64,000 nucleotides of DNA from Aurantiochytrium sp. KH105 (taxonomy: Eukaryota; Sar; Bigyra; Thraustochytrida; Thraustochytriidae). The stretch is taken from the NCBI GenBank assembly GCA_003116975.1, contig BGKB01000274.1:124001-188000 (forward strand), written 5' to 3'. The translations under genes and the position numbers were made by a program. Under the pieces are notes generated by a model. That model searched no databases. It worked only from the letters and a program-made list of their open reading frames with translations, and was not told the origin of the DNA. This document shows positions 1 through 63,238 of the stretch, one piece after another (within the stretch, counting starts at the first letter, position 1; each line of letters begins with the position of its first letter).

Positions 1-132
1 GTGATTGTCTTCGGAGCCGTCGGATACCGTATCTACCGCCAAAACAGCGATCGTCAGCAAAAGGCGGCGGCTGAGAAGGCAGCAAAACTGGCCCGCGAGT
101 CCCAACCCGTTGGCGATGTGGAGTTGAAGTAA
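1..132 (+). CDS. 3' end of an unidentified gene, probably a membrane protein
   Basis: An open frame runs from the first base of the window to a TAA at 130-132, giving a 43-residue C-terminus. It begins with a short hydrophobic stretch (VIVFGAVGYRIY) followed by a basic and Gln/Ala/Lys-rich tail. That is the pattern expected where a last transmembrane helix exits into a charged cytosolic tail. Too little is present to name a family. The gene converges with the fucosyltransferase-like gene on the opposite strand, about 230 bp away. Confidence 0.4.
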   Translation: MIVFGAVGYRIYRQNSDRQQKAAAEKAAKLARESQPVGDVELK

Positions 133-364
133 CATCTTCGAGAAACTCTTTACTATAGAGAAAAGCTTTTCCCAAGACTGTGCGTTACACACTCATGTGT
201 GTGATAGATTACAGTTCAAGCCGATGCGCTCTTCCAAGTTGCCGGTGTGCCACTAGAAACAGTTTTCACCTTCACTTTACTTTTTTTCCCCTTCTTCTTT
301 TCTGAATACACTTTGTTGTCCCGAAAAGTGAGAAAAAAAAAACCAATTTACAAAAAGAAAGCTC

Positions 365-18814: not shown

Positions 18815-19753
18815 TCAGTCCAGGCCCAGCGTGACCAGGCCCTTGGAACGGTTCCAGCCGAGCTCCTCGAGAAAAGAGTCCTCGGCCTGACGCATCAACT
18901 TGGCGTCTTTTTTCGTCTCGTGGTCAAAGAGTGCCAAATGCAATGCGCCATGGACAAGCAAAATACGAATCTCATCGCGCAGACTATGACCGCGCTCATC
19001 CGCCTGAAGAGCGGCCGTGTCAGCGGAAATGATGAGGTCGCCGAGAAAGGCAGTGGCGTCCTCACTTGCAGACAAGTCCACTTCCTTAAGAGCGTCAGCG
19101 CCTTCGTAGTATTCCGTGTCTGCCGCCGCGGCTTCGTACTTGGACAAGTCAATGTTCTCGTCATCCTCCTCACTTCCCCACTTGTCGAGCTCCTTTTGAA
19201 ACTCCTCGTCAAACGCTTGCGTATTGCCATCGGGGCCATTCTTCATCATGAGTGATGGGTCGAACATGCCTTTGAGCAGTTCTTCGGTCGACATCTTTGC
19301 TGCCGCGTGGCCGCTCATGGAGATGCTACCGCCGTTGCTTTCAAAGTCGGCGTGCATTGCGAACATCGGGTACGAAAGCACGTCCGTGGGCATGGGTACA
19401 TCCCGGTCGTTTTCGTTGAGCTCCGCAATGGTCTCGTCGCAGACCAAACTCAAGCTCACGCCCATGGTAGGCCTTTCAGTTTCCATTTGCGCGTGCACAA
19501 GGGCATGCAGACCAACGCAGGCCCTGAGATGCTTGTCGACCGGGGACTTGGGCTTTTCCAGGAGCGACCTTTTGCACAGGAGGCTGACAACACGCTGCGC
19601 ATCGGCGAGGATTTCCGCGCGGGCCTGACGACCGCTGGCGCCTGGAGGCCAGCGCAGCAGCGCGTTATCAAGTCTTGGCAGCTTACTCTCCGAGGCGAGT
19701 GAGACCAGGGTCCCCCAGCCCGCCGCGCCTTTGCGCAATCCCTTCGCGGCCAT
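18815..19753 (-). CDS. YbeY-type endoribonuclease / rRNA maturation factor with large insertion
   Basis: 312 residues from ATG 19753. YbeY (UPF0054) is a metal-dependent RNase for rRNA 3' maturation and ribosome quality control, usually bacterial or organellar. The conserved PTDVLSYP (about 122-129) and FLGDLIIS (about 236-243) segments are present. The zinc motif H-x3-H-x5-H (HGALHLALFDH, about 267-277) is intact and followed by a family-like EDSFLEELGW end. Two things are odd. The protein is about twice the usual bacterial length (roughly 150-170). A segment of about 105 residues, acidic and low complexity, separates PTDVLSYP from FLGDLIIS, which are nearly adjacent in typical YbeY. The N-terminal 95 residues include basic stretches that could be an organelle-targeting sequence, so a mitochondrial role is plausible. 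Confidence 0.85.
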   Translation of the reverse strand: MAAKGLRKGAAGWGTLVSLASESKLPRLDNALLRWPPGASGRQARAEILADAQRVVSLLCKRSLLEKPKSPVDKHLRACVGLHALVHAQMETERPTMGVSLSLVCDETIAELNENDRDVPMPTDVLSYPMFAMHADFESNGGSISMSGHAAAKMSTEELLKGMFDPSLMMKNGPDGNTQAFDEEFQKELDKWGSEEDDENIDLSKYEAAAADTEYYEGADALKEVDLSASEDATAFLGDLIISADTAALQADERGHSLRDEIRILLVHGALHLALFDHETKKDAKLMRQAEDSFLEELGWNRSKGLVTLGLD

Positions 19754-40829: not shown

Positions 40830-41120
40830 CGTCCTTGCTGGCCGGCTGGGTGGCTTCTCGCGCACGTGTTGTTTTCTTCTGGGTTTGCCACCTCGGCATC
40901 TAACGACCACTAGGCACTCAAAATTACGAATCTTGGGCACTCAAATTTTCAGACTCCTGCGCGGGGTTTGCGGCTATGGAAGAGGAGGACTTTGAAGCAA
41001 TCACAGCTAGCGCAGGGCCAAGTTCACTCTTGAAAATTACTTTCAACTTCAAAGGACGCAACGAGAGCATTTGGTTGATCATTTTCGTAAGATAAAGTAA
41101 AGGAAAGGAAAGGACAAAGC

Positions 41121-43378: not shown

Positions 43379-46300
43379 TTACAAAGAAGAAGAAGAAGAA
43401 GAAGAAGAAGAATATGAGGCGACAAAATCGCGGAAACGAACAGTGCCAGTCCCCGATGCGTCGTGCTTGCGGATCCACTGGTAAAGATCTCCGTCGGGAA
43501 CCGAGGCTCGACCCATGTCGTTAAATGCTGCGCGAAGAGTCACGAAGCGTACGCTTCCATCTCGCCCGCCGCCATAGCGACAGAAAGCGCGCCACAAAGC
43601 AGCAAGTTTGATTTCGCCAACCTTGCGGGCAAGCTTACCAGGAATGCGTGCGATCGCTTCCTCGAGAGTGATCACAGTCGGTCCTGCTTGAGAAGAATCG
43701 TCAAGCTGGCCGGGCGGCATCCGAGACGAAGCGGCAAGTTGTCCAACTTGAACTGACTGTAAGTCAGATTTTGTGTTGTCGTCGCCTTCGCCGCCTTTTG
43801 CATCACCACCACCACTAAGACGAGGAGACGTCGTCCTTGAGGCCTCTGAGCTTTGCAGAATGGGAGGCGCGCCCGATTTCGCCCAGGCGATTAGCTTTTG
43901 TGCCTGCCACCAATCAATTGAGGCACTCCTTTGGCCTGTTTGTACAAGAAGCCATGTGGCGACATCCTCCTTTGATGGGAGGCTCTTGCTCTCGCCCACA
44001 AGCGCAAGACACTCCACGAGAAAAGCATAGATGCGCTTGCCACCACTCAGGAGATTCAGGGCATCACTGTACCCAGCAAAGACATCCCGTGTCGAGGAAG
44101 ACACTGACGAGTCATCTTCCTCTCCGATGTGTAAGTCAGCGTGCAAGTTTACTGTGTTCGCGAGTTTGCAGAATTCTGCAAACGAGATCGATGTGGAGGA
44201 CCCAAAACTGAGAGAACGCGCCAGCGTCTCAACTTCGCCATCTAGAAGCGCGCGAACGCCAGACATGGAACTGAGCGCGGCTTGCGTCTGTCGCATCGAC
44301 AGCACCCCTTGCTGATTCGAATCAAATCGCTTGAAGAGTGTGTCCAGCGTCTTGACATCCACCCCGGACGAAGATGCGGCTGGACGCTTCCCCAAGGCGT
44401 GATCGTTTTCACCATTGCATCCAAGCAGGTACGTGGCATAAAACTCGTAAAACCCATGCAAGTCCATGTGAGGCTCGGCTCGCATTGCATTTGCCGCTGC
44501 GCGACGGGTCGCAGCGCTCGCAGAGATGGACTGCAACAGCTTTTGTAGCTCCTGCTTCCCCAGAACAGATTTCGTAAGTTGTTTCCCGGCACGATGGTTC
44601 TTTACTTGTCGCGCGTATTCGCGAAATAACTGTTCGGCGTCGACAATTGCATCTCCCAGCTTGTCGAGACAGTTGGCGGTCTGTGCCGCTGAAGGAAGAC
44701 CACGTTGAGGCGCATCGTTCAGGTGATCGGTAGCCTTACTTGCCTTGGTTTTCCTTCGATCATCTGCCACTAGATCCGATTCCTGTGAGGTCTTTGTTTC
44801 ATTTTCCGCAGGAACCTCTTTAAAGTATGGAGCATGTTCTCCGGGTCTTCGCGCTTCTGGGTGGGGCAGGTTGCCAAAGATTGATACAATGGCATCGTCA
44901 TTCAGGTTTTCTCGCTCGCGAACGAGGAGTTCCTGCAATTGATTTTCGTTCATGGAAGAAATAGCCGTGAGGACTGACCGCGCTTCCTGTGCCTCGCGAA
45001 TCTGCCTTTGCGCGCCCTGCTGCAGCCGCCGCGCCTCGCGGGAGATGACGCCTGCAGCTTTGATGTTGGCCACCAATTCTGCTCGCAGTGAGCTCAGGAT
45101 CGACGCCTTTTGGCAAAGAGCGCAAACGAGGTTCACTGCGTCCATGCGAAGTGGGCAGCTCTCGTTCCACGTGGGGCCGAGAATGTCACGAAGTCGAAGT
45201 TGATGTGCACCAGCAACGAGTCGCGTGCGGTCATTCAAGAGATTTGTCAAAAGCTGTTGCACGAAACCAGATCGTACAAGCTCATCCTGAAGAGACATGC
45301 ATGCCGCGCTTGCCCGCAAAAGAACAGACCAAGCACGACGGGTTACTGCACTTCGTTGTGGCCACTGAAAGAGGAGATCACGATGCTCGTCACCCTTTGC
45401 ATCGTCGGTGCTCTCGCGCAAAAGAACCACATTCGTTTCCACGTATGTGCGATATAATGTAGCAAGGTCTCCACACGAAGCCTCCTTAATTCCCCCCATC
45501 AGCGCTTCCAGTGCCTCGTCTTGTCCGGCGCACTCGCAGAGAAGAAAACTTGCCGCGCTCGTTTGCAGACTGAGAATGTCAGCGGTGAGGCTAGCAAAGT
45601 CGGTAAAGTCTTCCTGCATGATGCGCGCAAACACTGCAAAACAGCCAGATTCGCGCAGGAGAAAGGACGCTTGCCGAATGTTCAATTGCGGATTTTCTGA
45701 CAAGATAACCTGCTGCGCCATGGCCAGTACAACCTTGATGACGGGTATACGCTCTTGCGCGAGCTGGGCGCTGTCAAGAGACGCAGCCCAAAAATCCGAT
45801 ACCCACTGCTGAAAAACTGTCTTAAGAAGGGCCACATAGATTTCGTGGAGACTGCGGTCCGCCACAAAGTCGACCGTGACAGCAACACGGATGCGTCCCA
45901 GTAGTTGGCGCACCTCGTCTACGAGACTCGCCTCTTTGGTATCGTCCAAAAGACGCTCCAGGGCAGCCTCGGCATCATCTGCACCCTCGCCGACGATAGC
46001 ACGTGGCACTTCGATGTTGTAGTCATCACGGGCAAGCTCGACAAGCTCAGTGTGCGCATGGAACTGAGTGAGAAGGGCCCGATTTCCGTACACGGCAATA
46101 GTTGAACAAATCTCCGCAGCACTCTTACTGCGCGATTTTCGAAGCACGTGAAAGAGGGCAGGGAAAACGTCGCAAGCTTGCCATGCCGCGGTCATTGCCT
46201 CTCCCCCGCGAACTTGCAACTGCAAAATGTCCAGCGCAGACTCACGAAGGCTTGCTGTATCGCTCAAAACACGCTGTACAAGCATAGAGACGCACGATGC

Positions 46301-49300
46301 AGATGAAAAGACGAGGCCCATCTTGTCTTGCGCTCGGCGAAGCAAGAGCTCTTCTCGTGGACTCTGGGAAAATGTGTCAGAGTGCGCCAGGTCCGAGAGT
46401 CCATCCATGATTGCCTTGGCGCTATCGAGAGCCAGCTGGGTGAGTTCGAGATCCGCATCGCCGATAAGGACAACCGCGCGTGAAGCTAAGTCCATGTCGA
46501 GACACAGGCGCGCATGTTCCGCGATCGGCGACCGTAGAAGCGAGAGCACCTGCCTTCCCGCAACAAAACGAGACCTGGACTTGCGCCGCACAGACGCAAG
46601 CTGTGAAAGGCTGTGCCCAAGACTTAGAACTTCGCGGAGGTAGACGATACTGCGTTTGGACTCGGGAACTTCAGAGTGATCAGCGAGTTCGCTGTCAGCA
46701 TTGACCTTGGCATTCTTTGTCCCAATATATTCCCTTACTGCTGGAAGCCTTGGATTACCGCCTCCCTCGTCTGTGATAATCTGACGGAGCAGAGGAGCGA
46801 CGAACATTTCAAGCTCTGGCGTCCAGTGAACGGTTCCCTGACAATGGGCTGCCGCAGGGTACTGTTCCGCCATTTTAGAGTCATCTTCGAGACCATCCTC
46901 CCGACCAAAGTACAAGCATAGGATCGCTCGAAGATAAGGACCCACATGCTTGGCCATCGGCACATGAGCCGTTGCTGGTCGAGCAAACTCGGATCCGATT
47001 GTCTGAAAACCAAAGATGACCCGCTTCAGCACACGAAGTCGAAGCGGTTCGCTTGGATCGCCTTCCAAAAAACCAAGGTCCGAAATCCCTCGACCGGGAA
47101 CGTCCGCACCTCCCCCACTCGAGAAAAAACGCAGCGTTAACTTGACAACCGATTGCAAGGCCCCCATAGCCACAACCTCATCGCACAGAGATGGAGATGA
47201 TTCCAGCACGCTGTCACCATCGACATTGCCGCTCACGGAACAGCAGCAGCAGTCAACGACGGCTTCCACAGCATCCAAGAGCATGCGTGGATCCATAGCG
47301 CCATCGTGCCACTTTGCGCCGGCATCCTGAGAATGTGTCTGAGCAATAAGGATCTCGAGCGGAACGGCAACGCCCTGCCGCACATTTCTGCAAATACGAT
47401 CGCGTGCTAGCCATCGACGAGCAATCTTTCCCGCCTCTATGAAATCGGACTCGCTGATCAACAGACGCTCTGCTTCCATCAAGTCTTGGGGGAGCGGACG
47501 AGACCCCGGATCTGCTTTGAGGCATTGCATGGCAATGTCGATGACAAACGGCCCCGAGGCCACGAGATCATCGCCTACGTAGCTTCCAGCTTGAATTGCA
47601 CATGCCATCGCCTTGAATTCTGCGAGCTGCTTCATGCTCGCGTCAACCGCACATGCTTCGTTTGCTTGGGCCCCGCCCGTGCGTCGAAGCTGCAATTCTC
47701 CTCGTGGGCCGAGTGTCAATGTACTTGTGGCACTTAGCGATGACTTTGCATTCGGTACACTCAGTTGAAAGAGGCCATAGGGGAACGAGTTTGACTCGCG
47801 CGGAATGACGGAACCAGTAATAAGCTCCATGAGAAGGCACCCAAAACAGTACATGTCATATGCTTTGGAAGGTCGCGCGCCGTCGCGAGTGTCATTCACG
47901 GGATCATAGCCACGCTCTTCCGGAGAGACGACTTCTCCCAGATCCGGTCCGGCCACCATGTCGCCCTCCGTAGCTCCATCGAGGGCAAGCAGACCCGCAG
48001 TTGCTAGACTCGACAGACGGAGAAAACGCCCGCAAGGCGATACCAGAATCTGCCGAGGACGCGGGCCGCGCAGCACAATACCCTTTGCATGAATGATTTT
48101 CAGAATGCGAAGCAGCTGATAGGACCATGAGAGAAGGAGCGGCGCCAATGAAGGATGACCGAGGTATCCATGAGCATCCATACACTCACGGAGTGTTCGC
48201 CAGCCTGGCAAAGCCCCAAATACCATGGTGTAAGAACCGTCGGCTACAGTCTTTCTGCCTTCGTCTTCTACCGGTCGCGCATTGTCGAGAATCGTAGGAG
48301 CCACACCATCTTTCTCGAGTAGCCGGTACATTGCTGCCTCGCGCTCGAGATGTGCTTCATAAGGCTGGCCATCGTATGACTGAATTCTGGCCAGCTTTTG
48401 TTCATCGACAACATGGACCCAAAGATCAAGAGGATTGCCATGACCTTGTTGCCGGGTCCATCCCTTCGCACGATGGACCGTTCGCTGAGGCATGCTCTGT
48501 GCACAAGATGTGTCCTCGCCGTCGAGAGCAAGCCTATACCTCGGAGGCGCTGCACTGTCAAGAGCTGCGAGTGCACGTTCCGATGACCGCAAGAGAAATT
48601 CTGTCGATTCAGTTCCAAGGTTCCACAAAGTCGTGGATGAATTTTCCGGCATGACAGCATCCTCCTGTGCATCATTCCCGTCGCTTTTGGGGGCCTCCAG
48701 CAGATTGCCATGCACACTTGCATTAACGTGACCTACAGCACGCTGCTTGAGATTGGCCATGAGCGCTTTGAGATTCTCGTTGCAGGCGGCAAGTTCCATC
48801 GTGCAGTCTCTTGCAACGACAAGACTTGCAAGGCGTACTAATTTGTGCTGCGGCACGCGCTTTCGCAAATTCTCGCGGCTACCAAGCGCTCGAGTCCGCT
48901 GAACAGCATCTCGCACAGACCAAAATGGATCAATACGACTTGCAAAGAGCACAAAGTTCGCCTCCGAGAAACCAAAATTGGGCTCCCCTGGTGCATCGGA
49001 AGGAAGACCCCGACAAACCTCGAGAACTTGATCAGGGGAGCATGTATCACGGTCTAAAAAGTGCACCTGCTGCAAAACGTCAAAGGCCTCTTCCGGCGCC
49101 AGGACTTCGCTGTGTAGCCGAACCACGCACTCCAGCAATGTGACGAGCTCGATCGTCTGTCGCTTCCCATCGCGAGTTATTGCCGCTCGGAAGCGCGCGA
49201 AACTGCCGCCGAGGCCCAAGTCTAGGCCGAGATTGTTGGCCTCGTCGCCCGAGGCAAAAGAGTACTCAACAGCGTCGATCAGGCTTGACGTTGAGCAAGA

Positions 49301-55300: not shown

Positions 55301-58300
55301 CTTTCTCGTTTGTGCGGCCTTGTGCGGCGAGCGAGCCATAATATTGCTGTTGCTGACTACATTTGACTTCCCTGTGACAATGGTGACTTCCAGAGCGCGA
55401 AGGGCACCCTCAATGTCGACCTTGCGACGCCATAACATGTCCTCCACATCCTTTTCCAGTTGCGGAAACCGGAAATCTTTTGACGTGGCCCCTTTTGGAA
55501 TTGCGGCTGTGCCGCGCAAAACGTAGACGTCGGCGCCGTCCACTCTTTCAAATCCTACGGCTTCCATGAGCTGACGGCCATGAGCCCACTGCCCAATGCA
55601 CTTGAGGAAACGCGGGTTAGCGCAGCGCACTCGCCACTTACGCGAGTCCTTGGGATTCTGCAGCACATCCGTGACGATGACGAGACTCGTCTCAAGCGCA
55701 AGACGAAGCTGCGCTAGCGTACATTCCTGCTGAAGACTACGAACGGCCTCCCCGATTGTTTTCGAGCCGCCCTCCATAGCCCGAAGCTCCTTTTCGATTT
55801 CTTCGCGTCGTATCGTAAGGGTTGCAAGCGTGTCTTGAGGCACTCCCTCCACCATTGTGCGGCCGTACTTGTCCGCAACGCCACGGAGCGCCAACAGGTG
55901 AACGTGATCCGTCCCAGCAGCACTGTCCGTGGCAGACGCCTTTCGCTTAGGGGCGAATCCCACTGCGTGCATAAGTTCAATGCCTCCGCGAAGACGTCCA
56001 ATACGCGCCTGAAATGCCTTGTCGCGGACCCTGATTTGCCATAGGTTCGCGTCATCAGGCCTCGCCAAGACGTCGTTCAAGTACTGCAGCGCAGTCTCGG
56101 CAGCAACGCGGGTATCGCGAGGTGTAGAGTGTAGACGAAGCATTGCAAAGGCAGCAGGCACAGTGGGCTCGCCTGAAACACTTTCAAAGACGAAGCCGAA
56201 AGCGGCCAGCAGCTCTGGTAGCGACGTGCGTGCTCGTGCTTTACAAAAAGCGTCAAGAGTTGCTCGGAGCGGCGCCGGATCTCGACCCGCTTTGCGCAAA
56301 AGTTCCTCGGTGTCCGAGGCGCTGACTTCGCCCGTCTCGTCCGTATCAAGCTCCTCGAACGCGCGAACGAGCTTCTTCAAAATGTCAATGACCTCGTTCG
56401 AGCGTCCAAGAGAAAGTTTGCGCAAAAGTGCTTCGTGCTGTTCTCGTGAACCTTTCCACTCTCCGGAACGAAATGTCTGCGCAGCAAGCGCAGCAATCGT
56501 TTCCGTGTCACCAAGGGAGCTGCGTTGGCTTAGTGTAGCGCCGCCAGCGCGCCCCGAGGTTCCTGATCCCCAAAGTTTTTCATAGTACGAGCCGACGCGC
56601 CCAAACTCGTCGCGCTCCGGATCGCAAAACATGTACACGTACGCATGCGCAAATTCAGGCAATGATAGAGCATCGTGCTTTTGAAGTCCCATGATACGCA
56701 TGTACTCGCTGACCTGTGACACCGAGGCCTCCTTGCCTGTGTCAACGAGCGCAACACGAACATACTTTGCAGGCAGAATACGCCGTCCACGCCGGGTTTT
56801 AGAACAATACTCCTCAAAGGCGTCCTCGATGGCGCCGATCGCATCTTCGTTGAGCCGCTTGGCCCAAGCCTCTCTCTTCCATAACTTGCGCTCCGCTACT
56901 TCGCTCCCACTAGACAACGAAGATTCAGAACTCGTCGAGCTGCGCGAGTGATGTCTTTTTCGCCGCCGTGAGCGACTCCGACCTCTGCCTCTGGCGCTTC
57001 CACCTCGACCACGACCGCGACCTCGACCCTCGGAGGAAGTTGATGACTCGCTTTCGGAATCGGAGTCCTCCGAACTACTGTCCATGGTTATGCCAGTGTA
57101 AGCCTGGATGAACTCGACCAGGTCCACGGTGCCAGATCCATCAGCGTCAACTTCTGTAATCCAACGCTGCACATCTGCGCGCGAGAAGTCTTTGCCCATA
57201 TCACGAAAGGTTTGAGCGACTTCCTTTTCAGTGAGCTCCCCGTTGCCGTCTCGATCGTACTTGTCAAAGGCTCGCTGAAGTTCTTTAAAGCGACGCGCAC
57301 CGAGAATGGCTCTGCAACGTGCGCGATAGTCTTTTTCGCGCTCAATCTCGCTTAATCGAGGTGGTCGATGATTACGATCCGCCTCTCGCGAGGCCACGCG
57401 GCGCATTTTGGCCCAAATGGAAGACTTCTTCCCGCGAGACCGGCCGCGAGGGCTCTTGCTTCTGCTTCGCGATGAGTTCGTATTCAGCGAGCGAACTAAA
57501 GATGGTGATTTGTTCTGTTCCTTGTCACCGTCGTCGTAGTCGATGTCCACGCTGCCGTTTCGATGCACGCGCACGATCCGTCCCGGGTACCACGCAGTGC
57601 CGGTCCCGAATTGCGCTTTTACGGGATCGCCCACGACAAATTTGGACGACTTGCTATGCTCTTTTCCTCGAGGGCTCCGACTTCGACGCGGGCTCCTGCC
57701 ACCCCGAGGGCTTCGACTCCGCCTCCTGGTTCCGTGTCGCTCAGCCGAGCTCTCCTCGCTCTCCTCGCTGCTACTCTCGTCAAGTACCCCAAGATCGATG
57801 CAGATACTCTTGAATTCACCAAAGCTGAGAGCTTTAGCGGACGAGAACCCTTTACGCTTGCAGAACATATATGCTTGTTTGCGCTGCTCAGAGCTAAGAG
57901 CTGTTCCAGTCACTTTGCGAATCACTTCTGCTGCCGTTCCCGGTGTGACTTTGGCTTCGCGATCAAACACGTACTTGAAGCGCTTCAGCTGGCCATCATC
58001 CGCCGTTTTCCGGCTGGCCGCCGGGGCTTCGTCCAGCAGCTCAATGTTCGCTCGAATCACTTGGTCATCAAAATCGCCGTCGTCAAAGGCCACTGCAAAG
58101 GTTCCATCTCGGTTTACTGCCGTGATTTTGCCCGTATAGTATTCTGCAGAGCCCTTGAACCGCGCCTTGACTCTGGCGTTCTTTATTAGAGAAGACTTGC
58201 TGCTTGCTCTCCGAGATGATTTTACCGCGCGAATAAGGCGAGCCTGAACCTTATTCTCTTTATCGCCATCGTCATAAGCGATGGCAAACGTTCCATCGCG

Positions 58301-61300
58301 GTTCACAGCGGTGATTCGTCCTTGATACCACACTGAACCGCCTCCGTACTTGGCCTCGACGGTCTGGCCCTTTTCGAATGAGTCACTCTGCTCCGAGGAA
58401 GACTCCTCACTTCCTTCCCTTCGAGGTGATCGTGACCTTCGCGGAGACCGGGACCGGGACCGAGATCTGGAACGGGAGCTTGCGCGTGAATGCCGAGGAG
58501 AAGACCCGGCTTTCGAAGCAAGAGAGCGTATGAGAGAAGGGTCTACATGCCGCTCCGAGTCGCCATCATCATAGTCGATGTTGTACGTTCCATCGCGGTT
58601 GACGCGTACGACCCGACCGGTATAAAACTTTGCCCCACCTCCAAATTTTGCTTCGACCCGGTCTCCTTCCCTCAAGTCGACGCTTTGTGGATGGTCCTCC
58701 TCTGCACTACTCTCTTCTAAAAGGCCGAGCTCCCGACATATGTCCACCAAGTGCGCAAATTCAATTGGGTCTCGTGGTCGCAAACCCTGCTGTCGGACCA
58801 TGTTCATCATTTGTCTTCGTTCTGCTGAAGACAGGGCACGGCCGGAGAATTTACGCAAAAGCTCGCCTGCAGTGCCAAGAGTCACATCTTGCGATTCACG
58901 ATCGAAGAGATATCGGAGTCGGTCTTCGGCACTTGCGTTGCCTTGCTTCGATCGGCTTCGAGAATTTGGCACCGATCGAATGAGACTTGGTGCGACGCGA
59001 CGCTCGGCATCGCCATCATCATAGTTGATGTCACAGGCGCCGCTTGCATGAACACGCACGATTGTACCCTTGTACCATTTCGACTTGCCGCCAAAGCGAG
59101 CTTCAACCTTGTCGCCGCGCTTGAAAGAAGGACCCGCATCTGTCTCCGAATCGCTCGGCTCGCGACGCGGCGACCTCGATCGAGAGCGAGAGCGAGAACG
59201 AGATATGCTTGACGCGCGAATAAGATGCGGAGCAACGCGACGCTCCGCATCGCCATCATCGTAGTCGATGTCACAGGCGCCACTTGCATGGACACGCACA
59301 ATTGTGCCCTTGTACCATTTCGACTTGCCGCCAAAGCGAGCTTCAACCTTATCCCCGCGCTTGAAAGAAGGACCCGCATCTGTCTCCGAATCGCTCGGCT
59401 CCCGACGCGGCGACCGCGATCGAGAACGTGAACGAGATGCAACTGATGTACGAATGAGATGCGGAGCGACACGACGTTCCGCATCGCCATCATCGTAGTC
59501 GATATCGCAGGCGCCGCTTGCATGGACGCGCACGATCGTGCCCTTGTACCATTTCGACTTGCCGCCAAAGCGAGCTTCGACCTTGTCCCCGCGACTAAAG
59601 CCAGGCTCGGCGTCCGTTTCCGAGTCAAGAGCATCTCGTCGTGGCGATCGGCTTCGTGACGGCATCGCCCCCAAAGAGCGAATGAGATGCGGCACAACGC
59701 GACGTTCCGCATCGCCATCATCGTAGTCAATATCACAGGCGCCGCTTGCATGGACGCGCACGATCGTGCCCTTGTACCATTTCGACTTGCCGCCAAAACG
59801 AGCTTCGACCTTGTCCCCACGCTTAAAGCCAGGCTCAGCATCAGTCTCGGAGTCCAGAGCATCTCGTCGTGACGATCGGCTTCGTGACGGCATCGCCCCC
59901 AAAGAGCGAATAAGATGCGGCGCAACGCGGCGTTCCGCATCGCCATCATCGTAGTCAATATCGCAGGCGCCGCTTGCATGGACGCGTACAATCGTGCCCT
60001 TGTACCATTTCGACTTGCCGCCAAAACGAGCTTCGACCTTGTCCCCACGACTAAAGCCAGGCTCGGCGTCCGTTTCCGAGTCAAGAGCATCTCGTCGTGG
60101 CGATCGGCTTCGTGACGGCATCGCCCCCAAAGAGCGAATGAGATGCGGCGCAACGCGACGTTCCGCATCGCCATCATCGTAGTCGATATCGCAGGCGCCG
60201 CTTGCATGGACGCGCACGATCGTGCCCTTGTACCATTTCGACTTGCCGCCAAAACGAGCTTCGACCTTATCGCCACGCTTGAAGCTTGTCTCGTCTTGAG
60301 AATATATGGCTTCATCATCTGCATTCGGTCCTAGGGCGCCCATCTCTTCGCAAAGCTCGAGAAAGAGTTCTTCCGAAAACTGGTCCCGCGGACCAAGACC
60401 CTGCTTGCGAACGAAACTTGCAACTTGTTGACGCTGCGAGGCGAGAATCGGTTTGTTGGTAAGCTTTCGAAGTAAAGAAGAGACATTGCTCGCAGTAACC
60501 CGGGGGGTTGCATTATAGAGTTGGATCGCCTCAGATTTCGCTTGAGAATCCTGCATATTCTCGTCTTGAAATCGCGTTGTGCGTCTACGCGAAGAGTTAC
60601 GTTCCCGCGCAGGATCGTCTTTGATCACATAGTTGTCGTGATCTTGTACGCTGCGTACCAGTCGTGGAGGGACCCCCCGCTCCTTGTCACCATCGTCATA
60701 GTTGATGTCGAGGGTCCCATTCGGATGCACGCGCATGATGGTTCCATTGTACCATTTGGATTTGCCGCCAAACTTTGCTTGCACCTTTTGGCCACGAGCA
60801 AAGGAGGAAATTGCCCTATCTGAAATCTCATCATCTTCGAAACGGTTTTGTGCCTTGCCTCTTGAGGCGCCCCCGCGTGCGTCTGAAGAGGCAGGGCGAA
60901 TGCCGAGCTCTGCGCAAAGTTCTTCAAAGAGTACGAAGTCAAAGACATCGCGGGGCCCAATCCCATTGGATCGCGCAAATGCTTGAATCGCCCTTCGCTG
61001 TGAACTCAACACTGGTTTGCCCGTAATTTTGCGGAGAACATTTGATACGTTGCTGACCGTGACGCGTTTTTCCTTCTCAAAAATATCCTGTATGAGCGAT
61101 CCGGAGTCGTTCATACCAGAGTCCAGAGAGGAGACTCCCGGAGAGCCAGGGCCTCTTCGACTTCCTGTCCGTGATTCATCGATGGGGCGTATTTTATCAA
61201 CAGAAGCCTTTCGAATAATCTCTCCATCGTCGAACTCAACATCAAAAGTCCCATCACGATACGCTCGTCGGATGCTGCCTTCGAACCATTGTAAGCTGAA

Positions 61301-63238
61301 TGATTCCTGGGCCTCGACCCTGTCGCCGACATGAAAGTCAACTGTGACACTATCGACGCCGTCGGCTCTACCTCTACCTCTACCTCCACCTCTTCCTTGA
61401 CCCACGTTCCTTGGCTGTGCTCTTGACTCAAGCGCCTGAATCATGCTCGCCTCGACATTTTTCTCAAAGTCGCCATCGTCGTAATCAATGTCAAAGGTTC
61501 CGTCGCGGTTTGCCTGACGAATTTGACCATCATACCAGCGAGACCTGCCGCCGAAACGCGCCTTGACGCGATCGCCGGTCTCGTATGAGGCAGTCTCGTT
61601 GTGCGCGCCTTTAGTATTCCTTTTGCGCGGCGGGAGAGCGCTTGACTCGCGCGAGACGTTTTCGTGAACTTGTAATCTCGCGCAAAGCTCCTCAAATTGG
61701 GCCAACGTAAGTTCGTCGCGAGGCCCGAGACCAAGCGTGCCAACAATAAAGTCCCGAATTTCCGCTCTTTGTGAAGGCGAAACTGGACGGCCCGTTAACT
61801 TTCGCAGTAATGCAGGAACTACACTGAGTGTGACTCTGCGCTCCTTCTCGAAAAGATATCGAACACGTTCGAGTTCGCCAGACGCTGTGGAGGCAACGGA
61901 GCCAGCACTTGCGGAGCGCTGCATCGATTGTACTGGCGAGCTGCCGCTATTCGCAGATCGCCTCGAGACAGAAGTGTCTGCTGCGATCCCAAGACGCTCG
62001 CAGAGATCTCCAAACTGTTCAAAAGTTAGTTCGGCTCGACTTGGAACGCCAAGTTCGCGTTGGAAAGTCGCTATTTTTTGACGTTGAGAAGACAAAACAG
62101 GTTTTCCCGAGACTTTGCGAAGTACCGAAGGGAGTTTGTTGAAGGTGACTGGAGCTTCTGAGGCAAATATTGCAGCAAGTGGGTCGTCGTGTGCGTCCTC
62201 GTGCGTTGAAGTGCGCTCACGTCGCCGGGATGATGTTGCTATGGTTGTTGTTTCGGAAGCCTTGGCCTCAATGCCAAGCGATTCTCGCCCAGAGCCGTGA
62301 GCCTGTCGCCGTCTCTCGTTGCTCTGTCCTGCAGCGTGATGCTGGGGCTGAATAGTGATGCGGAGCTGACCCGTGGAGTCGGAAAGGGCACAAAGTGACC
62401 GATCAAAGCCTTGCTCGAGCAGCTTTGCAAGCTTGTACTGCCTGGAGCCAAGCTTGTTGGGACCAGTTAGTTCGTCTGCCCATAGTTCCACGGCAAGAGT
62501 CGAGTCAGGGTCATCGGCCAGGTCTGCTTCGAGAGTGAGGTCTGTGCTCTCGTTCCAACGCGGTTGGTCGCCAATTTTCACAGATGTCTGCCATTCCACG
62601 GGTCTTCCACGCGAGAACTCTGACGCAACGACTACCTTGACAAAGGGGTAAAGCTCGTCGCTGGCCTCGATGACTCTCCGCAGTCGTCTTCCTTCGTGAA
62701 CTTCGACATGGAGGGTGGGAGCGCCGCCTTGGGCCGAAAACTCGTCGTGAGGGCTGCGTCGATGACTTCGGCCTCGAGGCGAAGGATCATGCTCGAATCG
62801 GTTCGGGCTCGCCCTCGACTGCGCGGACCTCTCGCGCGTCCGCGCATATCTCCGAGGTTCCGTGCTGTCCTCGGCCTCGCCGCGTCTCCTGTGGAGATAG
62901 TCGTCGTCGTCGTCGTCGTCGTCCCAACCGCGCGCTTCCGGGCTCGACAGCTCTCCTTCTGACCTGCCACCGCGCACGGCCCGAGGCCGTCGCGCATGCA
63001 TGTTGCCAAGCGCGGCGGCGCCTGCGTATCGACCCGCGCCAGGGTCGTGCGCCGCGGCTTTTGCTCTGCGTATCTGCCTCGGCGCGCTTCTTGTTTGGCG
63101 CGCTCGAGTCCGCGCGTTAGGCTCTGTGCCCAAGTTTTGGGCTTGAAGGAAACCGGCCCAACGGGCAAGCTTTTCCGAATAGACCTTTTGTTCTTTCTTT
63201 TTTTTCCCCGCTCGCGACGCGAGGTGGCCATCACCCAT
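43379..63238 (-). CDS. Giant multidomain protein: C2, Tudor-like array, EF-hands, PUB-like, beta-propeller, pseudokinase
   Basis: One uninterrupted frame of 19,860 nt gives 6,619 residues from ATG 63238 (MGDGHLAS); eleven further codons open upstream without ATG. Domain order, N to C, by genomic position: C2 (62722-62342); six LRK modules and thirteen Tudor-like repeats interleaved (62172-57485); canonical EF-hand pair (57290-57080); RS-rich linker; degenerate EF-hands; PUB-like domains (56110-54230) with an EF pair between them; coiled coil (54000-53890); EF-hands (about 53030, 52690); beta-propeller-like strands (52150-50330) interrupted by an EF pair; pseudokinase (48480-47400); helical-repeat region (about 47000-45000); degenerate EF-hands and poly-Ser end (44700-43379). 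No signal peptide or membrane helix is evident, so it is probably cytosolic. Calcium-responsive scaffolding of the cytoskeleton, cortex or flagellum is my inference. No orthologue comes to mind. Confidence 0.9.
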   Translation of the reverse strand: MGDGHLASRAGKKKKEQKVYSEKLARWAGFLQAQNLGTEPNARTRARQTRSAPRQIRRAKAAAHDPGAGRYAGAAALGNMHARRPRAVRGGRSEGELSSPEARGWDDDDDDDDYLHRRRGEAEDSTEPRRYARTRERSAQSRASPNRFEHDPSPRGRSHRRSPHDEFSAQGGAPTLHVEVHEGRRLRRVIEASDELYPFVKVVVASEFSRGRPVEWQTSVKIGDQPRWNESTDLTLEADLADDPDSTLAVELWADELTGPNKLGSRQYKLAKLLEQGFDRSLCALSDSTGQLRITIQPQHHAAGQSNERRRQAHGSGRESLGIEAKASETTTIATSSRRRERTSTHEDAHDDPLAAIFASEAPVTFNKLPSVLRKVSGKPVLSSQRQKIATFQRELGVPSRAELTFEQFGDLCERLGIAADTSVSRRSANSGSSPVQSMQRSASAGSVASTASGELERVRYLFEKERRVTLSVVPALLRKLTGRPVSPSQRAEIRDFIVGTLGLGPRDELTLAQFEELCARLQVHENVSRESSALPPRKRNTKGAHNETASYETGDRVKARFGGRSRWYDGQIRQANRDGTFDIDYDDGDFEKNVEASMIQALESRAQPRNVGQGRGGGRGRGRADGVDSVTVDFHVGDRVEAQESFSLQWFEGSIRRAYRDGTFDVEFDDGEIIRKASVDKIRPIDESRTGSRRGPGSPGVSSLDSGMNDSGSLIQDIFEKEKRVTVSNVSNVLRKITGKPVLSSQRRAIQAFARSNGIGPRDVFDFVLFEELCAELGIRPASSDARGGASRGKAQNRFEDDEISDRAISSFARGQKVQAKFGGKSKWYNGTIMRVHPNGTLDINYDDGDKERGVPPRLVRSVQDHDNYVIKDDPARERNSSRRRTTRFQDENMQDSQAKSEAIQLYNATPRVTASNVSSLLRKLTNKPILASQRQQVASFVRKQGLGPRDQFSEELFLELCEEMGALGPNADDEAIYSQDETSFKRGDKVEARFGGKSKWYKGTIVRVHASGACDIDYDDGDAERRVAPHLIRSLGAMPSRSRSPRRDALDSETDAEPGFSRGDKVEARFGGKSKWYKGTIVRVHASGACDIDYDDGDAERRVAPHLIRSLGAMPSRSRSSRRDALDSETDAEPGFKRGDKVEARFGGKSKWYKGTIVRVHASGACDIDYDDGDAERRVVPHLIRSLGAMPSRSRSPRRDALDSETDAEPGFSRGDKVEARFGGKSKWYKGTIVRVHASGACDIDYDDGDAERRVAPHLIRTSVASRSRSRSRSPRREPSDSETDAGPSFKRGDKVEARFGGKSKWYKGTIVRVHASGACDIDYDDGDAERRVAPHLIRASSISRSRSRSRSRSPRREPSDSETDAGPSFKRGDKVEARFGGKSKWYKGTIVRVHASGACDINYDDGDAERRVAPSLIRSVPNSRSRSKQGNASAEDRLRYLFDRESQDVTLGTAGELLRKFSGRALSSAERRQMMNMVRQQGLRPRDPIEFAHLVDICRELGLLEESSAEEDHPQSVDLREGDRVEAKFGGGAKFYTGRVVRVNRDGTYNIDYDDGDSERHVDPSLIRSLASKAGSSPRHSRASSRSRSRSRSRSPRRSRSPRREGSEESSSEQSDSFEKGQTVEAKYGGGSVWYQGRITAVNRDGTFAIAYDDGDKENKVQARLIRAVKSSRRASSKSSLIKNARVKARFKGSAEYYTGKITAVNRDGTFAVAFDDGDFDDQVIRANIELLDEAPAASRKTADDGQLKRFKYVFDREAKVTPGTAAEVIRKVTGTALSSEQRKQAYMFCKRKGFSSAKALSFGEFKSICIDLGVLDESSSEESEESSAERHGTRRRSRSPRGGRSPRRSRSPRGKEHSKSSKFVVGDPVKAQFGTGTAWYPGRIVRVHRNGSVDIDYDDGDKEQNKSPSLVRSLNTNSSRSRSKSPRGRSRGKKSSIWAKMRRVASREADRNHRPPRLSEIEREKDYRARCRAILGARRFKELQRAFDKYDRDGNGELTEKEVAQTFRDMGKDFSRADVQRWITEVDADGSGTVDLVEFIQAYTGITMDSSSEDSDSESESSTSSEGRGRGRGRGGSARGRGRSRSRRRKRHHSRSSTSSESSLSSGSEVAERKLWKREAWAKRLNEDAIGAIEDAFEEYCSKTRRGRRILPAKYVRVALVDTGKEASVSQVSEYMRIMGLQKHDALSLPEFAHAYVYMFCDPERDEFGRVGSYYEKLWGSGTSGRAGGATLSQRSSLGDTETIAALAAQTFRSGEWKGSREQHEALLRKLSLGRSNEVIDILKKLVRAFEELDTDETGEVSASDTEELLRKAGRDPAPLRATLDAFCKARARTSLPELLAAFGFVFESVSGEPTVPAAFAMLRLHSTPRDTRVAAETALQYLNDVLARPDDANLWQIRVRDKAFQARIGRLRGGIELMHAVGFAPKRKASATDSAAGTDHVHLLALRGVADKYGRTMVEGVPQDTLATLTIRREEIEKELRAMEGGSKTIGEAVRSLQQECTLAQLRLALETSLVIVTDVLQNPKDSRKWRVRCANPRFLKCIGQWAHGRQLMEAVGFERVDGADVYVLRGTAAIPKGATSKDFRFPQLEKDVEDMLWRRKVDIEGALRALEVTIVTGKSNVVSNSNIMARSPHKAAQTRKTARIVSPNSRSPRSRETDASKFFATVHARSATEDLQLKMIQKVFQDFDVDGDGYITARDLKEALLRRGHDNSDAAVAAWIRSRDIDHDGSVSLAEFTASFAHTVPPRVMDGRGLENVPLQPAKLNENGTNSARAKGWRPEDAISPTEVAFGLVRLFHTKRQCSSILANLCAFTEKALDHRARTLDATNSSKPQQQQDRGKPFVLAPDDYVRHVAKTKGAAEILSALHWTYDGRRRSYVSHVNAEEMEQIRARLRELDMHRRGLEFPEVANAKAVGGAVASLGGTPSTQENRPSSWLAAMETVVRYLENVLHDPQAPRFRRINIQNETFRRRIGRLQGGIEVLIAAGFRETEESMLLLPEKASLPEIKARLVEIKAGIEPLREQAKLERNRVTDNPLDKAGQRRTKVVRGSDFPQQQKDTNGKEEPPQKSNEKPRGFANRRIESLRIKELEAQVHVLKEKLVETRKVKKASELQESFASSHRGDETADIPSELVTYELLAHERSRNSGPGSKMLKRGSGLGGGALLGASASRATGGRIGPLSRSGAPLVRARVSRGASRGQGKLFVTSDQGFRNGDMILVGKVSETQEARFVVGFSDGCLILDRVLEFDHEEGSPVITGRANKSEMRDFRRREIADYVVSDILLPLVENCVDAGEAVVRARDLQRRFEERPLMKPVFVSRLEHESTLGEDALLVGASTLARDNPSFTAASLPNRLWYSEKMATLYVLRHANEAHVWTEAMSPLELRDLFELIDADGDGRICRDEVVAAASSEPRVAALLSAGCFRNVDGGDHDSSQAFATIFDGRQAELTWEEFASFFSAGARRAAQERATPGWWTTLRRWCEEAWASGLSEDDLREMHVTFSLFDADADGKLSFQEWRAACQSMDGVFPTSTGWPDAPRSQLASDAEAAELWSRARRINFAEFGKLRAAQARRHGDVHAGQGMSASSALGGLGILTLIRRNLRRLHAELLRQYNGKITKAIFLQGCFDDTALLELMHFPLAQSEDAGQSIETLETRLRQFGAHPRATSTRAVSWADIARCVNASSSPTTMMPLRAPALFSGRAQRTVCFGQDDAKVYEVACDQELQRVFVLYLSGALVVWSADGQRELCRTQVMSHASPARHAMATGSRAMRVLQFDSKTSLLIVCTAPVDNRFQVLESVSLRNLRDITLHAKPAVGAELAPIIEVAEFSSRWDAVICAVSGGAANIQILCARFGHPIALVPTAKEYSGIPRLLYVPDAEFLVAGDAGETLRFWDLAEQLRWRRAASDASSQSLQGLLSKLRKALALRASLDDNEDSSRRAVLLAQDRAHLSWTVRYADDLGGTETKIDACRLRHLCNEDVGSEEISGVSQFRKGMEVIVVGQKLVDVAISRLYPSRPGHADVLVVGTGEGWTSVMLPEELGHVDVGDRVRIPLPAEHGDVEALFARLDENGDGVVSLEELSTLVREHARLDLHREDLARVFDYIDVNKDGQVSLRELSAALKDRDEGFARTRAAKRPPKELVCRHTTVLPGKGKSTQVTALAFLRMAGLVCAATSGGKIHLVDPLVRRFRLTHRAFADLHAETEPELTQASENYACVHSFDVPRGGVVSQLSPVYFQSAGKDTHVPVTLNHAQAEAAKRADQTLQDSLGPNDALVQGFAYVSANGSVLVVAASGFDENMVLLQDQSLFGMTGAMTRPGGWSSGTDDLRQAYRLRTSVRRVFYLVSKEARGLAEVRASLERGGLALLDLMSIERALENPHVHVFPFYQQGDGPNSVLANPRSSSSLESVANHVGMVTRRIGKSMYEVAYDASRSVLKLPRHMLEPLTDAHSSRDLQTGERVRVQQGMLYSDNRIASDGAVARDDSTGSQFGPPDDGSSVELLSALFIERDGSLGVGTWSVDRINVLTPARDLAYPLSRVQRLAAVRSGARWRAMAHQSVRAAASLSHLQVRSFQAAEVGLLEKIGEVLRNVSLRSGHGDPQTSAEEAFQLTRLLPQRWGARFRNMLRTFREIFDRVAQGQSCSTSSLIDAVEYSFASGDEANNLGLDLGLGGSFARFRAAITRDGKRQTIELVTLLECVVRLHSEVLAPEEAFDVLQQVHFLDRDTCSPDQVLEVCRGLPSDAPGEPNFGFSEANFVLFASRIDPFWSVRDAVQRTRALGSRENLRKRVPQHKLVRLASLVVARDCTMELAACNENLKALMANLKQRAVGHVNASVHGNLLEAPKSDGNDAQEDAVMPENSSTTLWNLGTESTEFLLRSSERALAALDSAAPPRYRLALDGEDTSCAQSMPQRTVHRAKGWTRQQGHGNPLDLWVHVVDEQKLARIQSYDGQPYEAHLEREAAMYRLLEKDGVAPTILDNARPVEDEGRKTVADGSYTMVFGALPGWRTLRECMDAHGYLGHPSLAPLLLSWSYQLLRILKIIHAKGIVLRGPRPRQILVSPCGRFLRLSSLATAGLLALDGATEGDMVAGPDLGEVVSPEERGYDPVNDTRDGARPSKAYDMYCFGCLLMELITGSVIPRESNSFPYGLFQLSVPNAKSSLSATSTLTLGPRGELQLRRTGGAQANEACAVDASMKQLAEFKAMACAIQAGSYVGDDLVASGPFVIDIAMQCLKADPGSRPLPQDLMEAERLLISESDFIEAGKIARRWLARDRICRNVRQGVAVPLEILIAQTHSQDAGAKWHDGAMDPRMLLDAVEAVVDCCCCSVSGNVDGDSVLESSPSLCDEVVAMGALQSVVKLTLRFFSSGGGADVPGRGISDLGFLEGDPSEPLRLRVLKRVIFGFQTIGSEFARPATAHVPMAKHVGPYLRAILCLYFGREDGLEDDSKMAEQYPAAAHCQGTVHWTPELEMFVAPLLRQIITDEGGGNPRLPAVREYIGTKNAKVNADSELADHSEVPESKRSIVYLREVLSLGHSLSQLASVRRKSRSRFVAGRQVLSLLRSPIAEHARLCLDMDLASRAVVLIGDADLELTQLALDSAKAIMDGLSDLAHSDTFSQSPREELLLRRAQDKMGLVFSSASCVSMLVQRVLSDTASLRESALDILQLQVRGGEAMTAAWQACDVFPALFHVLRKSRSKSAAEICSTIAVYGNRALLTQFHAHTELVELARDDYNIEVPRAIVGEGADDAEAALERLLDDTKEASLVDEVRQLLGRIRVAVTVDFVADRSLHEIYVALLKTVFQQWVSDFWAASLDSAQLAQERIPVIKVVLAMAQQVILSENPQLNIRQASFLLRESGCFAVFARIMQEDFTDFASLTADILSLQTSAASFLLCECAGQDEALEALMGGIKEASCGDLATLYRTYVETNVVLLRESTDDAKGDEHRDLLFQWPQRSAVTRRAWSVLLRASAACMSLQDELVRSGFVQQLLTNLLNDRTRLVAGAHQLRLRDILGPTWNESCPLRMDAVNLVCALCQKASILSSLRAELVANIKAAGVISREARRLQQGAQRQIREAQEARSVLTAISSMNENQLQELLVRERENLNDDAIVSIFGNLPHPEARRPGEHAPYFKEVPAENETKTSQESDLVADDRRKTKASKATDHLNDAPQRGLPSAAQTANCLDKLGDAIVDAEQLFREYARQVKNHRAGKQLTKSVLGKQELQKLLQSISASAATRRAAANAMRAEPHMDLHGFYEFYATYLLGCNGENDHALGKRPAASSSGVDVKTLDTLFKRFDSNQQGVLSMRQTQAALSSMSGVRALLDGEVETLARSLSFGSSTSISFAEFCKLANTVNLHADLHIGEEDDSSVSSSTRDVFAGYSDALNLLSGGKRIYAFLVECLALVGESKSLPSKEDVATWLLVQTGQRSASIDWWQAQKLIAWAKSGAPPILQSSEASRTTSPRLSGGGDAKGGEGDDNTKSDLQSVQVGQLAASSRMPPGQLDDSSQAGPTVITLEEAIARIPGKLARKVGEIKLAALWRAFCRYGGGRDGSVRFVTLRAAFNDMGRASVPDGDLYQWIRKHDASGTGTVRFRDFVASYSSSSSSSSSL
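47400..48480 (-). other. Pseudokinase domain of the giant protein
   Basis: The kinase C-lobe is recognisable: LLSWSYQLLRILKIIHAKGI, then an ILV block, an SPEERGYDP segment at the APE position (about 47905-47935) and DMYCFGCLLMELITG, the F-helix with its conserved Asp (about 47815-47860). The catalytic loop reads LRGPRPRQILV instead of HRDLKPxNILL. The DFG position reads SSLA. Both catalytic aspartates are thus lost. Predicted inactive scaffold. Confidence 0.8.
50330..52150 (-). other. Beta-propeller-like (WD40-type) region with an embedded EF-hand pair
   Basis: Repeated strand patterns with WD-like endings occur, for example GALVVWSADG and GETLRFWDLAEQ (51511-51552). After an EF-hand pair (DENGDGVVSLEE at about 50980-51015 and DVNKDGQVSLRE at about 50870-50905), more strands follow (VTALAFLRMAGLVCAATSGGKIHLVDP). 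The blade count is not certain. The EF pair appears to be inserted within the propeller. Confidence 0.65.
54230..56110 (-). other. PUB-like domains and an EF-hand pair of the giant protein
   Basis: Three segments share the PUB/PUG pattern (hydrophobic helix, R-h-R-x-x-N/D-x-x-F-x-x-R-I-G-x-h-x-G-G-h-E-h-h-x-A-h-GF). They are about 55890-56110 (ARIGRLRGGIELMHAVGF), 55510-55720 (CIGQWAHGRQLMEAVGF) and 54230-54420 (RIGRLQGGIEVLIAAGF). A fourth, weaker one is at 54590-54850. PUB domains in other proteins bind p97/VCP. An EF pair (DVDGDGYITARD and DIDHDGSVSLAE) lies at 55010-55190. Confidence 0.72.
57080..57290 (-). other. Canonical EF-hand pair of the giant protein
   Basis: Two complete 12-residue loops are present: DRDGNGELTEKE and DADGSGTVDLVE, each with acidic positions 1, 3 and 12 and glycine 6, flanked by amphipathic helices ending in FIQAYTG. 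This is a calmodulin-like pair expected to bind calcium. Confidence 0.9.
57485..61591 (-). other. Thirteen Tudor-like repeats in the giant protein
   Basis: Each unit is about 50 residues: G-D-x-V-x-A-x-F-G-G-x-S-x-W-Y-x-G-x-I, then R-x-G-x-x-D-I-D-Y-D-D-G-D. That is the Tudor/SH3-like barrel pattern. Units lie at about 61438-61591, 61180-61335, 60648-60802, 60134-60282, 59906-60054, 59678-59826, 59450-59598, 59216-59364, 58976-59126, 58525-58675, 58225-58376, 58036-58187 and 57485-57640. They are joined by SR/RS-rich linkers. Aromatic residues are retained, so ligand binding (methylated Lys/Arg) is conceivable but unproven. Confidence 0.8.
58976..60282 (-). repeat. Six near-identical tandem repeats (about 228-bp period) inside the giant gene
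   Basis: Six of the Tudor-like units, each KVEARFGGKSKWYKGTIV plus its RVHASGACDI continuation, are almost identical at DNA and protein level. The four at the N-terminal side repeat every 228 bp (the YDDGDAERR codons recur near 59475, 59703, 59931 and 60159). The last two have longer or shorter SR linkers. Linkers alternate SETDAEPGF and SETDAGPSF. Confidence 0.92.
60330..62172 (-). other. LRK modules 1-4 of the giant protein (unrecognised 62-residue repeat)
   Basis: Four copies at 61982-62172, 61670-61862, 60895-61092 and 60330-60520; two more lie at about 58720-58917 and 57785-57970. Shared pattern: hydrophobic-F-x-x-E, V-T, LRK-h-(T/S)-G-(K/R)-P, S-x-QR, then G-h-x-P-R-D-x-h-x-F-x-x-F-x-x-L-C-x-x-L-G. 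The spacing of helices with an LRK-G turn suggests a degenerate EF-hand pair, but no calcium loop is intact. I know no named domain for it. Confidence 0.7.
62342..62722 (-). other. C2 domain of the giant protein
   Basis: Residues about 173-299. The beta pattern TLHVEVHEGRRL, YPFVKVVVASEF, then QTSVKIGDQPRWNESTDLTL and LAVELWADE follows the C2 fold (LxVxVxxAxxL, DPYVxV, T, xNPxWNExFxF, L-x-V-x-V-W-D). Several calcium-binding aspartates of classical C2 domains seem absent or replaced, so calcium binding is unsure. Confidence 0.72.

Follow-up and report, generated by a model that had tools for sequence, protein, structure and literature searches.

A stretch of 64,000 nucleotides of contig BGKB01000274.1 (C274:124001-188000) from the thraustochytrid Aurantiochytrium sp. 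KH105, referred to here as the window and the frame of reference for all coordinates given without a contig name, carries on its minus strand a gene for a giant protein made up of many small modules. The gene opens with an ATG at 63238 and continues to 43379 through 6,619 codons with no internal stop, and the open frame around it starts upstream of this ATG, at 63349. A preliminary description, made from the letters alone, had proposed one giant stop-free frame, and this was borne out by simulation: in 50 x 64 kb of sequence with the dinucleotide make-up of the window the longest stop-free frame averaged 311 codons and the maximum was 404. Codon usage, scored after training on seven other long frames in the window, favoured the giant frame in 22/22 blocks over both remaining forward frames as well as the best-scoring antisense frame, and frames of more than 4,000 codons occur elsewhere in the genome (76.0 Mb in 367 contigs) too. 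The same description termed the gene "intron-free", which holds only in the sense that no intron is required to keep the frame open; as a claim it reaches no further than the frame.

A second copy of the locus is present on contig C70, where the frame is open for 5,673 codons before 9,809 Ns cut it off. The two copies, aligned over 5,671 codons, are 96.2% identical in amino acids, with a non-synonymous divergence (dN) of 0.0187 and a synonymous divergence (dS) of 0.1195; third positions hold 480 of the 700 base changes, and dN/dS is below 0.5 in 19/19 blocks, with poorly aligning repeats raising the value of the first. Since the second copy is open over such a length and purifying selection is evident, 43379-63238 is a real gene under purifying selection. 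The first ~930 codons of the giant gene have no second copy, because C70:1-9809 consists of Ns, and their support comes from codon usage and from the modules themselves. A frame of 8945 codons (given as "8945 aa") in the C70 copy was dismissed as an artefact that runs through the 9,809 Ns. An Rfam scan of the window gave no match, and a membrane protein was rejected on the grounds that no 19-residue stretch has a mean hydropathy above 1.5.

Modules of the giant protein

Reading from the N-terminus, the modules are a C2-like domain; LRK1 and LRK2; Tudor-like repeats 1-2; LRK3; Tudor-like repeat 3; LRK4; Tudor-like repeats 4-9; LRK5; Tudor-like repeats 10-12; LRK6; Tudor-like repeat 13; three EF-hand pairs; PUB1 and PUB2; an EF-hand pair; the PUB3-like domain and PUB4; EF-hands; a WD40-like region; an EF-hand pair; a pseudokinase; a part without any match; and two EF-hand pairs. 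There are 13 Tudor-like repeats, six LRK modules, nine EF-hand pairs, of which one is partial, and four PUB-like domains in total (Table 1). The EF-hand, Tudor and PUB families exceed their Pfam cut-offs in the giant protein, and no enzyme rose above any cut-off in the Pfam and NCBIfam family searches. Local profiles for EF-hands, PUB domains and Tudor repeats were partly built from the giant protein's own copies, so that the E-values they return for those copies are not independent; the Pfam results are. The Tudor-like repeats named in the preliminary description were recovered by Pfam, with 12 Tudor_5 stretches in amino acids (aa) 1-3300, and by the local profile, with 13 repeats. Their number is not constant between the copies of the gene, since the tandem array has six repeats in the giant gene and at least seven on C70 (C70:9819-11300), a count made up of six whole repeats and the end of another repeat of the same type adjoining the Ns. 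A short stretch further along the chain, at aa 3203-3245 (window 53504-53632; KLFVTSDQGFRNGDMILVG...), had no Pfam match and may resemble a type of beta repeat known from large proteins that bacteria secrete.

The LRK module, which had been described as unrecognised, turned out to be a relative of the EF-hand. A profile of the six LRK copies matched a profile of 14 EF-hand pairs, drawn from the giant protein and two other genes, with a probability of 92% and an E-value of 6.4e-7, and this score was equalled by 0/300 shuffles of the LRK columns and 0/600 shuffles of the EF-hand columns. As controls, the reversed alignment gave a probability of 3.6% and the PUB profile 0.1%; against the EF-hands of the two other genes alone the E-value was 2.7e-6. 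A structure model made from the six copies (predicted local distance difference test score, pLDDT, 92) has the order helix-strand-helix-helix-strand-helix, which is common to LRK and to EF-hand pairs of the calmodulin type, the difference being that LRK is without the acidic ligands: in an alignment by eye D-x-D-x-D-G is found in the loops of 0/6 copies. The structural match is weak on its own, because all Foldseek E-values were 1.0 or worse and template modelling scores (TM-scores) to other EF-hand proteins were low, at about 0.36-0.50, as against up to 0.64 (by query length) to the presumed calmodulin chains. We take the six leading Foldseek matches as EF-hand proteins; for three of these the title of the entry and the length of the chain suggest calmodulin. 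When the LRK profile was compared with PDB sequences three non-EF chains ranked first, and myosin light chains appeared at E 0.86 or worse. A wholly new fold was rejected on the profile comparison and the model, which both point to an EF-hand pair, and on that combined evidence LRK is an EF-hand pair in degenerate form, calcium-blind because the acidic loop ligands are absent in all six copies. A genome search with one LRK copy produced eight matches at E<=0.1, all of them in the giant gene and its second copy.

The remaining EF-hands were assessed by a test of the 12-residue loop (D at position 1, acidic or polar residues at 3 and 5, G at 6, a hydrophobic residue at 8 and E at 12). Canonical EF-hands had been foreseen, and seven of the 11 loops scored do fit at all six positions; the remaining four fail. 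For the loop at 6305 the scoring began one residue too soon, and once it is put in register its last acidic residue is still missing. Loop sequences are identical in the second copy in 10 of the 11 cases, and EF-hand_7 reaches 39.5 bits on the C-terminal block. Taken together, the loop sequences make it very probable that the canonical EF-hands of the giant protein are calcium-competent. As for the C2-like domain, its similarity to the C2 of PKC-beta was found by phmmer (E 7e-4) but not by Pfam at E<=3. In that one phmmer alignment, and considering the third loop alone, WADELTGPNK is set against WDWDLTSRND of PKC; we take the Asp residues of this loop to be the calcium ligands of PKC, and the C2-like domain has Ala, Glu and Lys in their place. 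A calcium-driven C2 was therefore rejected, and calcium-driven membrane contact is unsupported because the domain appears to be without ligands of the PKC type.

Among the PUB-like domains PUB4 is matched by Pfam PF09409 at 62.0 and 66.2 bits (cut-off 34.3) and by the PUB domain of PNGase at E 6e-11. Passages of PMC6995525 describe how the Tyr of the p97 tail stacks between two Tyr residues and bonds an Asn, summarised as the motif YxxN(x)9Y, with a further Asn that, in a model, is near enough to the carboxylate of the tail to form a bond, and report that mutating any of the three motif residues strongly impairs binding. At the four pocket places PUB4 has Y-N-F-N, PUB1 Y-D-L-D, PUB2 I-D-K-N and PUB3 I-N-A-N, and the residues of PUB4 are the same in both gene copies. 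The Cdc48 frame of the same genome ends DDDDEEDLYS, which provides the Leu-Tyr that PUB domains hold. The earlier suggestion of PUB domains with possible p97 binding is thus sustained in part, by the pocket of PUB4 and the matching Cdc48 tail, but not for PUB1-3, where the pocket is lost; four working p97 sites were rejected, as the pocket is mostly kept in PUB4 alone. From its residues, PUB4 may still hold the Cdc48/p97 tail. It is like the known p97 cofactors with PUB domains (PNGase, UBXD1 and HOIP) in that it aligns to the PNGase PUB and retains most of the tail pocket. The giant gene has EF-hands beside its PUB domains, whereas an EF-hand was found in 0/20 loci of the other PUB genes of this genome (11 distinct genes, with 1.5-kb flanks), several of which, judged by eye, presumably carry ubiquitin-pathway domains. 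A piece of ~115 bases at C243:about 18888-19002 is 92% identical to part of the PUB1 coding sequence (window 55869-55975) and is a stray PUB1 copy out of context.

In the C-terminal half the WD40-like region is matched in the PDB mainly over one blade, by 14 entries all of which we take to be WD40 proteins. The NCBIfam YncE propeller was found there at E 0.018, far under its cut-off, and a single-sequence structure model of aa 3690-4300 failed (pLDDT 34) and was left unused. The pseudokinase had been predicted correctly: in the kinase-like region LRG stands at the place of HRD and SSL at the place of DFG, as read by eye, and because HRD and DFG are absent the region is, by its motifs, a pseudokinase and not an active kinase. 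The helical-repeat region of the preliminary description could not be confirmed, with no PDB match for aa 5261-6190 at E<=10 and no Pfam family for aa 5201-5950 at E<=3.

Table 1. Features of the giant gene and its product, in order along the chain (positions in the window)
Feature	Residues (aa)	Window position	Strand	Evidence
Giant gene		43379..63238	-	6,619 codons + stop, one frame
C2-like domain	174-300	62339..62719	-	PKC-beta C2 by phmmer, E 7e-4; Pfam none at E<=3
LRK1, degenerate EF-hand pair	354-419	61982..62179	-	alignment, profile comparison, model
LRK2	459-525	61664..61864	-	alignment, profiles
Tudor-like repeats 1-2	553-685	61184..61582	-	local profile; Pfam scores of block below cut-offs
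LRK3	716-781	60896..61093	-	genome search, profiles
Tudor-like repeat 3	814-863	60650..60799	-	Pfam scan, local profile
LRK4	904-969	60332..60529	-	genome search, profiles
Tudor-like repeats 4-9, tandem array of six	987-1422	58973..60280	-	first three 96-97% DNA-identical
LRK5	1441-1507	58718..58918	-	genome search, local profile
Tudor-like repeats 10-12	1523-1734	58037..58672	-	Pfam, local profile
LRK6	1754-1819	57782..57979	-	genome search, local profile
Tudor-like repeat 13	1868-1917	57488..57637	-	local profile
EF-hand pair, both loops canonical	1984-2050	57089..57289	-	Pfam EF-hand_7; loop scoring
EF-hand-like pair, degenerate	2134-2203	56630..56839	-	local profile containing it
EF-hand pair, loop not fully canonical	2287-2350	56189..56380	-	local profile; loop scoring
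PUB1, pocket lost (YDLD)	2359-2450	55889..56164	-	41.3 bits, above Pfam cut-off 34.3
PUB2, pocket lost (IDKN)	2500-2576	55511..55741	-	34.0 bits, just below Pfam cut-off 34.3
EF-hand pair, one loop canonical, other with Asp at position 12	2683-2749	54992..55192	-	Pfam
PUB3-like, degenerate (INAN)	2790-2887	54578..54871	-	local profile containing it; Pfam none
PUB4, p97-tail pocket mostly kept (YNFN)	2919-3005	54224..54484	-	Pfam; PNGase PUB
EF-hand pair, one canonical loop	3388-3466	52841..53077	-	Pfam scan, local profile, loop scoring
EF-hand partial pair, one canonical loop	3500-3575	52514..52741	-	Pfam scan, local profile, loop scoring
WD40-like region	3690-4058	51065..52171	-	14 PDB matches at E<=10, best 0.0028
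EF-hand pair, both loops canonical	4065-4131	50846..51046	-	Pfam; PDB 1.6e-6
Pseudokinase	4938-5260	47459..48427	-	PDB CDKL3 4.4e-4; Pfam Pkinase 0.017, below cut-off
Region without any match	5261-6190	44669..47458	-	0 PDB matches at E<=10
EF-hand-like pair, degenerate loop	6295-6363	44150..44356	-	EF-hand_7, best stretch of block
C-terminal EF-hand pair, loop not fully canonical	6545-6612	43403..43606	-	Pfam scan, local profile

Relatives in the genome and in the literature

A genome search with Tudor_5 gave 78 matches at E<=0.001, several of them in other long frames. Five of the other Tudor frames were scanned, each in part, and a sixth (L051) was read without a profile scan. EF-hands were found in two of the five partly read frames: L049 (C8:576001-584500) carries 20 Tudor-like repeats together with a SAM domain and an EF-hand in a single frame, and L050 (C29:281001-288500) has 16 Tudor repeats with two EF-hand pairs between the first three of them. 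In the stretches read of the other three, Tudor repeats number 1 (L053), 14 (L054) and 1 (L055) and no EF-hand was seen, and profiles detected an LRK or PUB module in the stretches read of 0/5 of these frames. L049 and L050 are like the giant protein in having the same Tudor-like repeat, linkers rich in Ser/Arg and in acidic residues, and joined EF-hand pairs, and in L050 two EF-hand pairs are set between the first Tudor repeats, an arrangement like that of LRK in the giant protein. They are unlike it in that their frames have 2,561 and 2,325 codons (2,372 and 1,980 read), with no LRK above noise and no PUB seen. The 7,319-codon frames of C59 and C88 were rejected as relatives, with two Tudor repeats in the 8 kb read and what by eye looks like a quite different protein; the stretch concerned, C59:206001-214000 (L051), is part of a 7,319-codon frame, another giant one in this genome.

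When the rest of the chain was compared with the genome, aa 2021-3620 matched, beyond the two copies, nothing except PUB domains at other loci and a single short fragment, aa 3084-3620 found nothing at 0.001 beyond the two copies, and aa 3621-6619 likewise nothing at E<=1e-5. The middle and C-terminal parts are, by these searches, without a full-length paralogue in this genome. A scan of viral contigs with aa 3640-4306 revealed no relative. Word searches across 5.39 million openly available papers did not find PUB domain, EF-hand and Tudor together, or PUB domain, EF-hand and p97, nor did they find a calcium-controlled p97 recruiter of this build, and those pairing thraustochytrid or stramenopile with EF-hand, Tudor or calcium brought up papers on inositol signalling in oomycetes, on ARF GTPases and on subjects not relevant by title. 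The sole co-mention of "PUB domain" and "EF-hand" concerned protist calpains with added modules (PMC3563603), in which, according to the sections consulted, PUB and EF-hand were each added on their own to a protease family. The mixing of modules is alike in the two cases; unlike those calpains the giant protein has no detected protease domain, and the word Tudor is absent from the same sections (PMC3563603).

The building blocks are thus known ones, and the full combination was not met in Pfam, NCBIfam, PDB sequences, the viral contigs (one piece), this genome or the words of the open literature, a scope that has the oomycete and labyrinthulid proteomes outside it. The claim that the domain combination matches no known family is accordingly narrowed: Tudor repeats and EF-hands in one frame recur in L049 and L050, and it is the whole combination that these searches did not meet. 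From this comparison the giant protein would be a protein of the Tudor/EF-hand array kind to which PUB, WD40-like and pseudokinase parts have been added.

Duplication is not confined to the giant gene. Near-identical pairs are frequent among the 150 C2 matches listed in the genome, and a 1,318-codon frame with a phytoene synthase domain is present in two copies. A literature search on ploidy listed nothing relevant. Parts of PMC5924542 give the first scaffold assembly of KH105 as 76.7 Mb (86.0 Mb in its Table 1) and note duplicated genes, and they also describe the crtIBY fusion of this strain, of 1,268 residues, which is seemingly common to thraustochytrids.

Possible functions

A scaffolding role for the giant protein is, from its modules, somewhat more likely than not. 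The fuller reading, in which a single giant protein is a calcium-responsive scaffold that may recruit Cdc48/p97, is put forward tentatively, as something rather short of an even chance. On that reading a rise in calcium would change the shape of the competent EF-hands (those with the seven fully canonical loops), and the chain would present docking surfaces to its partners through the Tudor array, the WD40-like part and the pseudokinase. PUB4 would grip the AAA+ unfoldase Cdc48/p97 by its C-terminal tail, calcium could expose the bound p97 or place it where assemblies must be dismantled, and PUB1-3, with the pocket lost, would be structural or other binding modules. The separate steps do not share one degree of confidence. 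Recruitment of p97, for which one pocket and one tail speak, is conceivable without being the likelier outcome; calcium control of that recruitment is unlikely; and it is highly improbable that the protein is a labyrinthulid-specific, calcium-gated Cdc48/p97 platform through which calcium directs unfolding to a site, perhaps the bothrosome or the ectoplasmic net. The words "calcium", "C2 domain" and "Tudor" do not occur in the main text of an Aurantiochytrium proteome study (PMC12221091), and because they are absent that source speaks neither for nor against a bothrosome role.

A number of points weigh against a calcium-responsive recruiter of p97. The WD40-like, kinase and C2 assignments have weak E-values, the C2-like domain, its calcium ligands probably lost, is unlikely to bind calcium, and a single Tudor-like repeat compared with the PDB found only Tudor-SN, at E 0.014. 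The NCBIfam matches that fell under their cut-offs, namely XopAW (61 and 81 bits, cut-off 120), a deiodinase-related family and transaldolase, would appear to reflect EF-hand similarity only. Phe replaces the second Tyr of the published motif in PUB4, the last residue of the Cdc48 tail is Ser and not Gly, the pocket is gone in three of the four PUB-like domains of the giant protein, and Y/N/aromatic/N is kept in 3/15 of the distinct PUB domains of the genome (four in the giant protein and 11 elsewhere, from 26 loci read). Because so few of the 15 keep the pocket and three of the four lack it here, it would seem that loss of p97 binding is common in this genome, or else that the motif is laxer than in animals.

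The alternative that survives best, possible but rather doubtful, is that of a structural or cytoskeletal giant. It would belong to the cell cortex, basal body, flagellum or bothrosome; its Tudor barrels and EF-hand pairs would be mainly spacers and its PUB domains relics or binders of something other than p97. Such a protein would be in keeping with the two other genes in which long Tudor arrays go with EF-hands and the stretch read shows no PUB, and with the unequal number of Tudor repeats in the two copies (six in one, at least seven in the other), which a tolerant spacer would be expected to show; it is harder to reconcile with the retention of most of the PUB4 pocket in both copies and with a dN/dS below 0.5 throughout, while the lost pockets of PUB1-3 and the LRK pairs without calcium ligands again suit it. 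A nuclear scaffold that reads methylated proteins by means of the Tudor array, its Ser/Arg-rich linkers being phosphorylation sites, is improbable: the chromatin-type names of the best Pfam matches (Tudor_5, SGF29, Agenet and MORC2), which would favour it, come from remote members, and the PDB comparison of one repeat came closest to Tudor-SN (0.014); RSRSRSPRR stretches do occur in the linkers, but neither the C2-like domain nor the PUB pocket requires a nuclear location. That internal starts or splicing instead yield a number of shorter proteins from the frame is very unlikely. The missing second copy of the first ~930 codons would favour it, but it has to contend with 6,619 codons without a stop against a simulated maximum of 404, a coding signal unbroken in 22/22 blocks, a second copy open across the junctions it covers and further frames of more than 4,000 codons in the genome.

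Should the p97 step of the calcium-responsive scaffold be true, calcium signalling and the p97 unfoldase would be in direct physical connection within one polypeptide. Even if that step is false, there would be a protist giant built with calcium-blind EF-hand pairs as beads between Tudor-like barrels, a construction seen in a gene whose two copies differ in repeat number, and the giant protein would be a candidate for labyrinthulid-specific cell structures.

Downstream of the giant gene, and likewise on the minus strand, its neighbours encode proteins of the Sir2 family (at 41124-43013) and of ORC3-like type (at 38415-40940).

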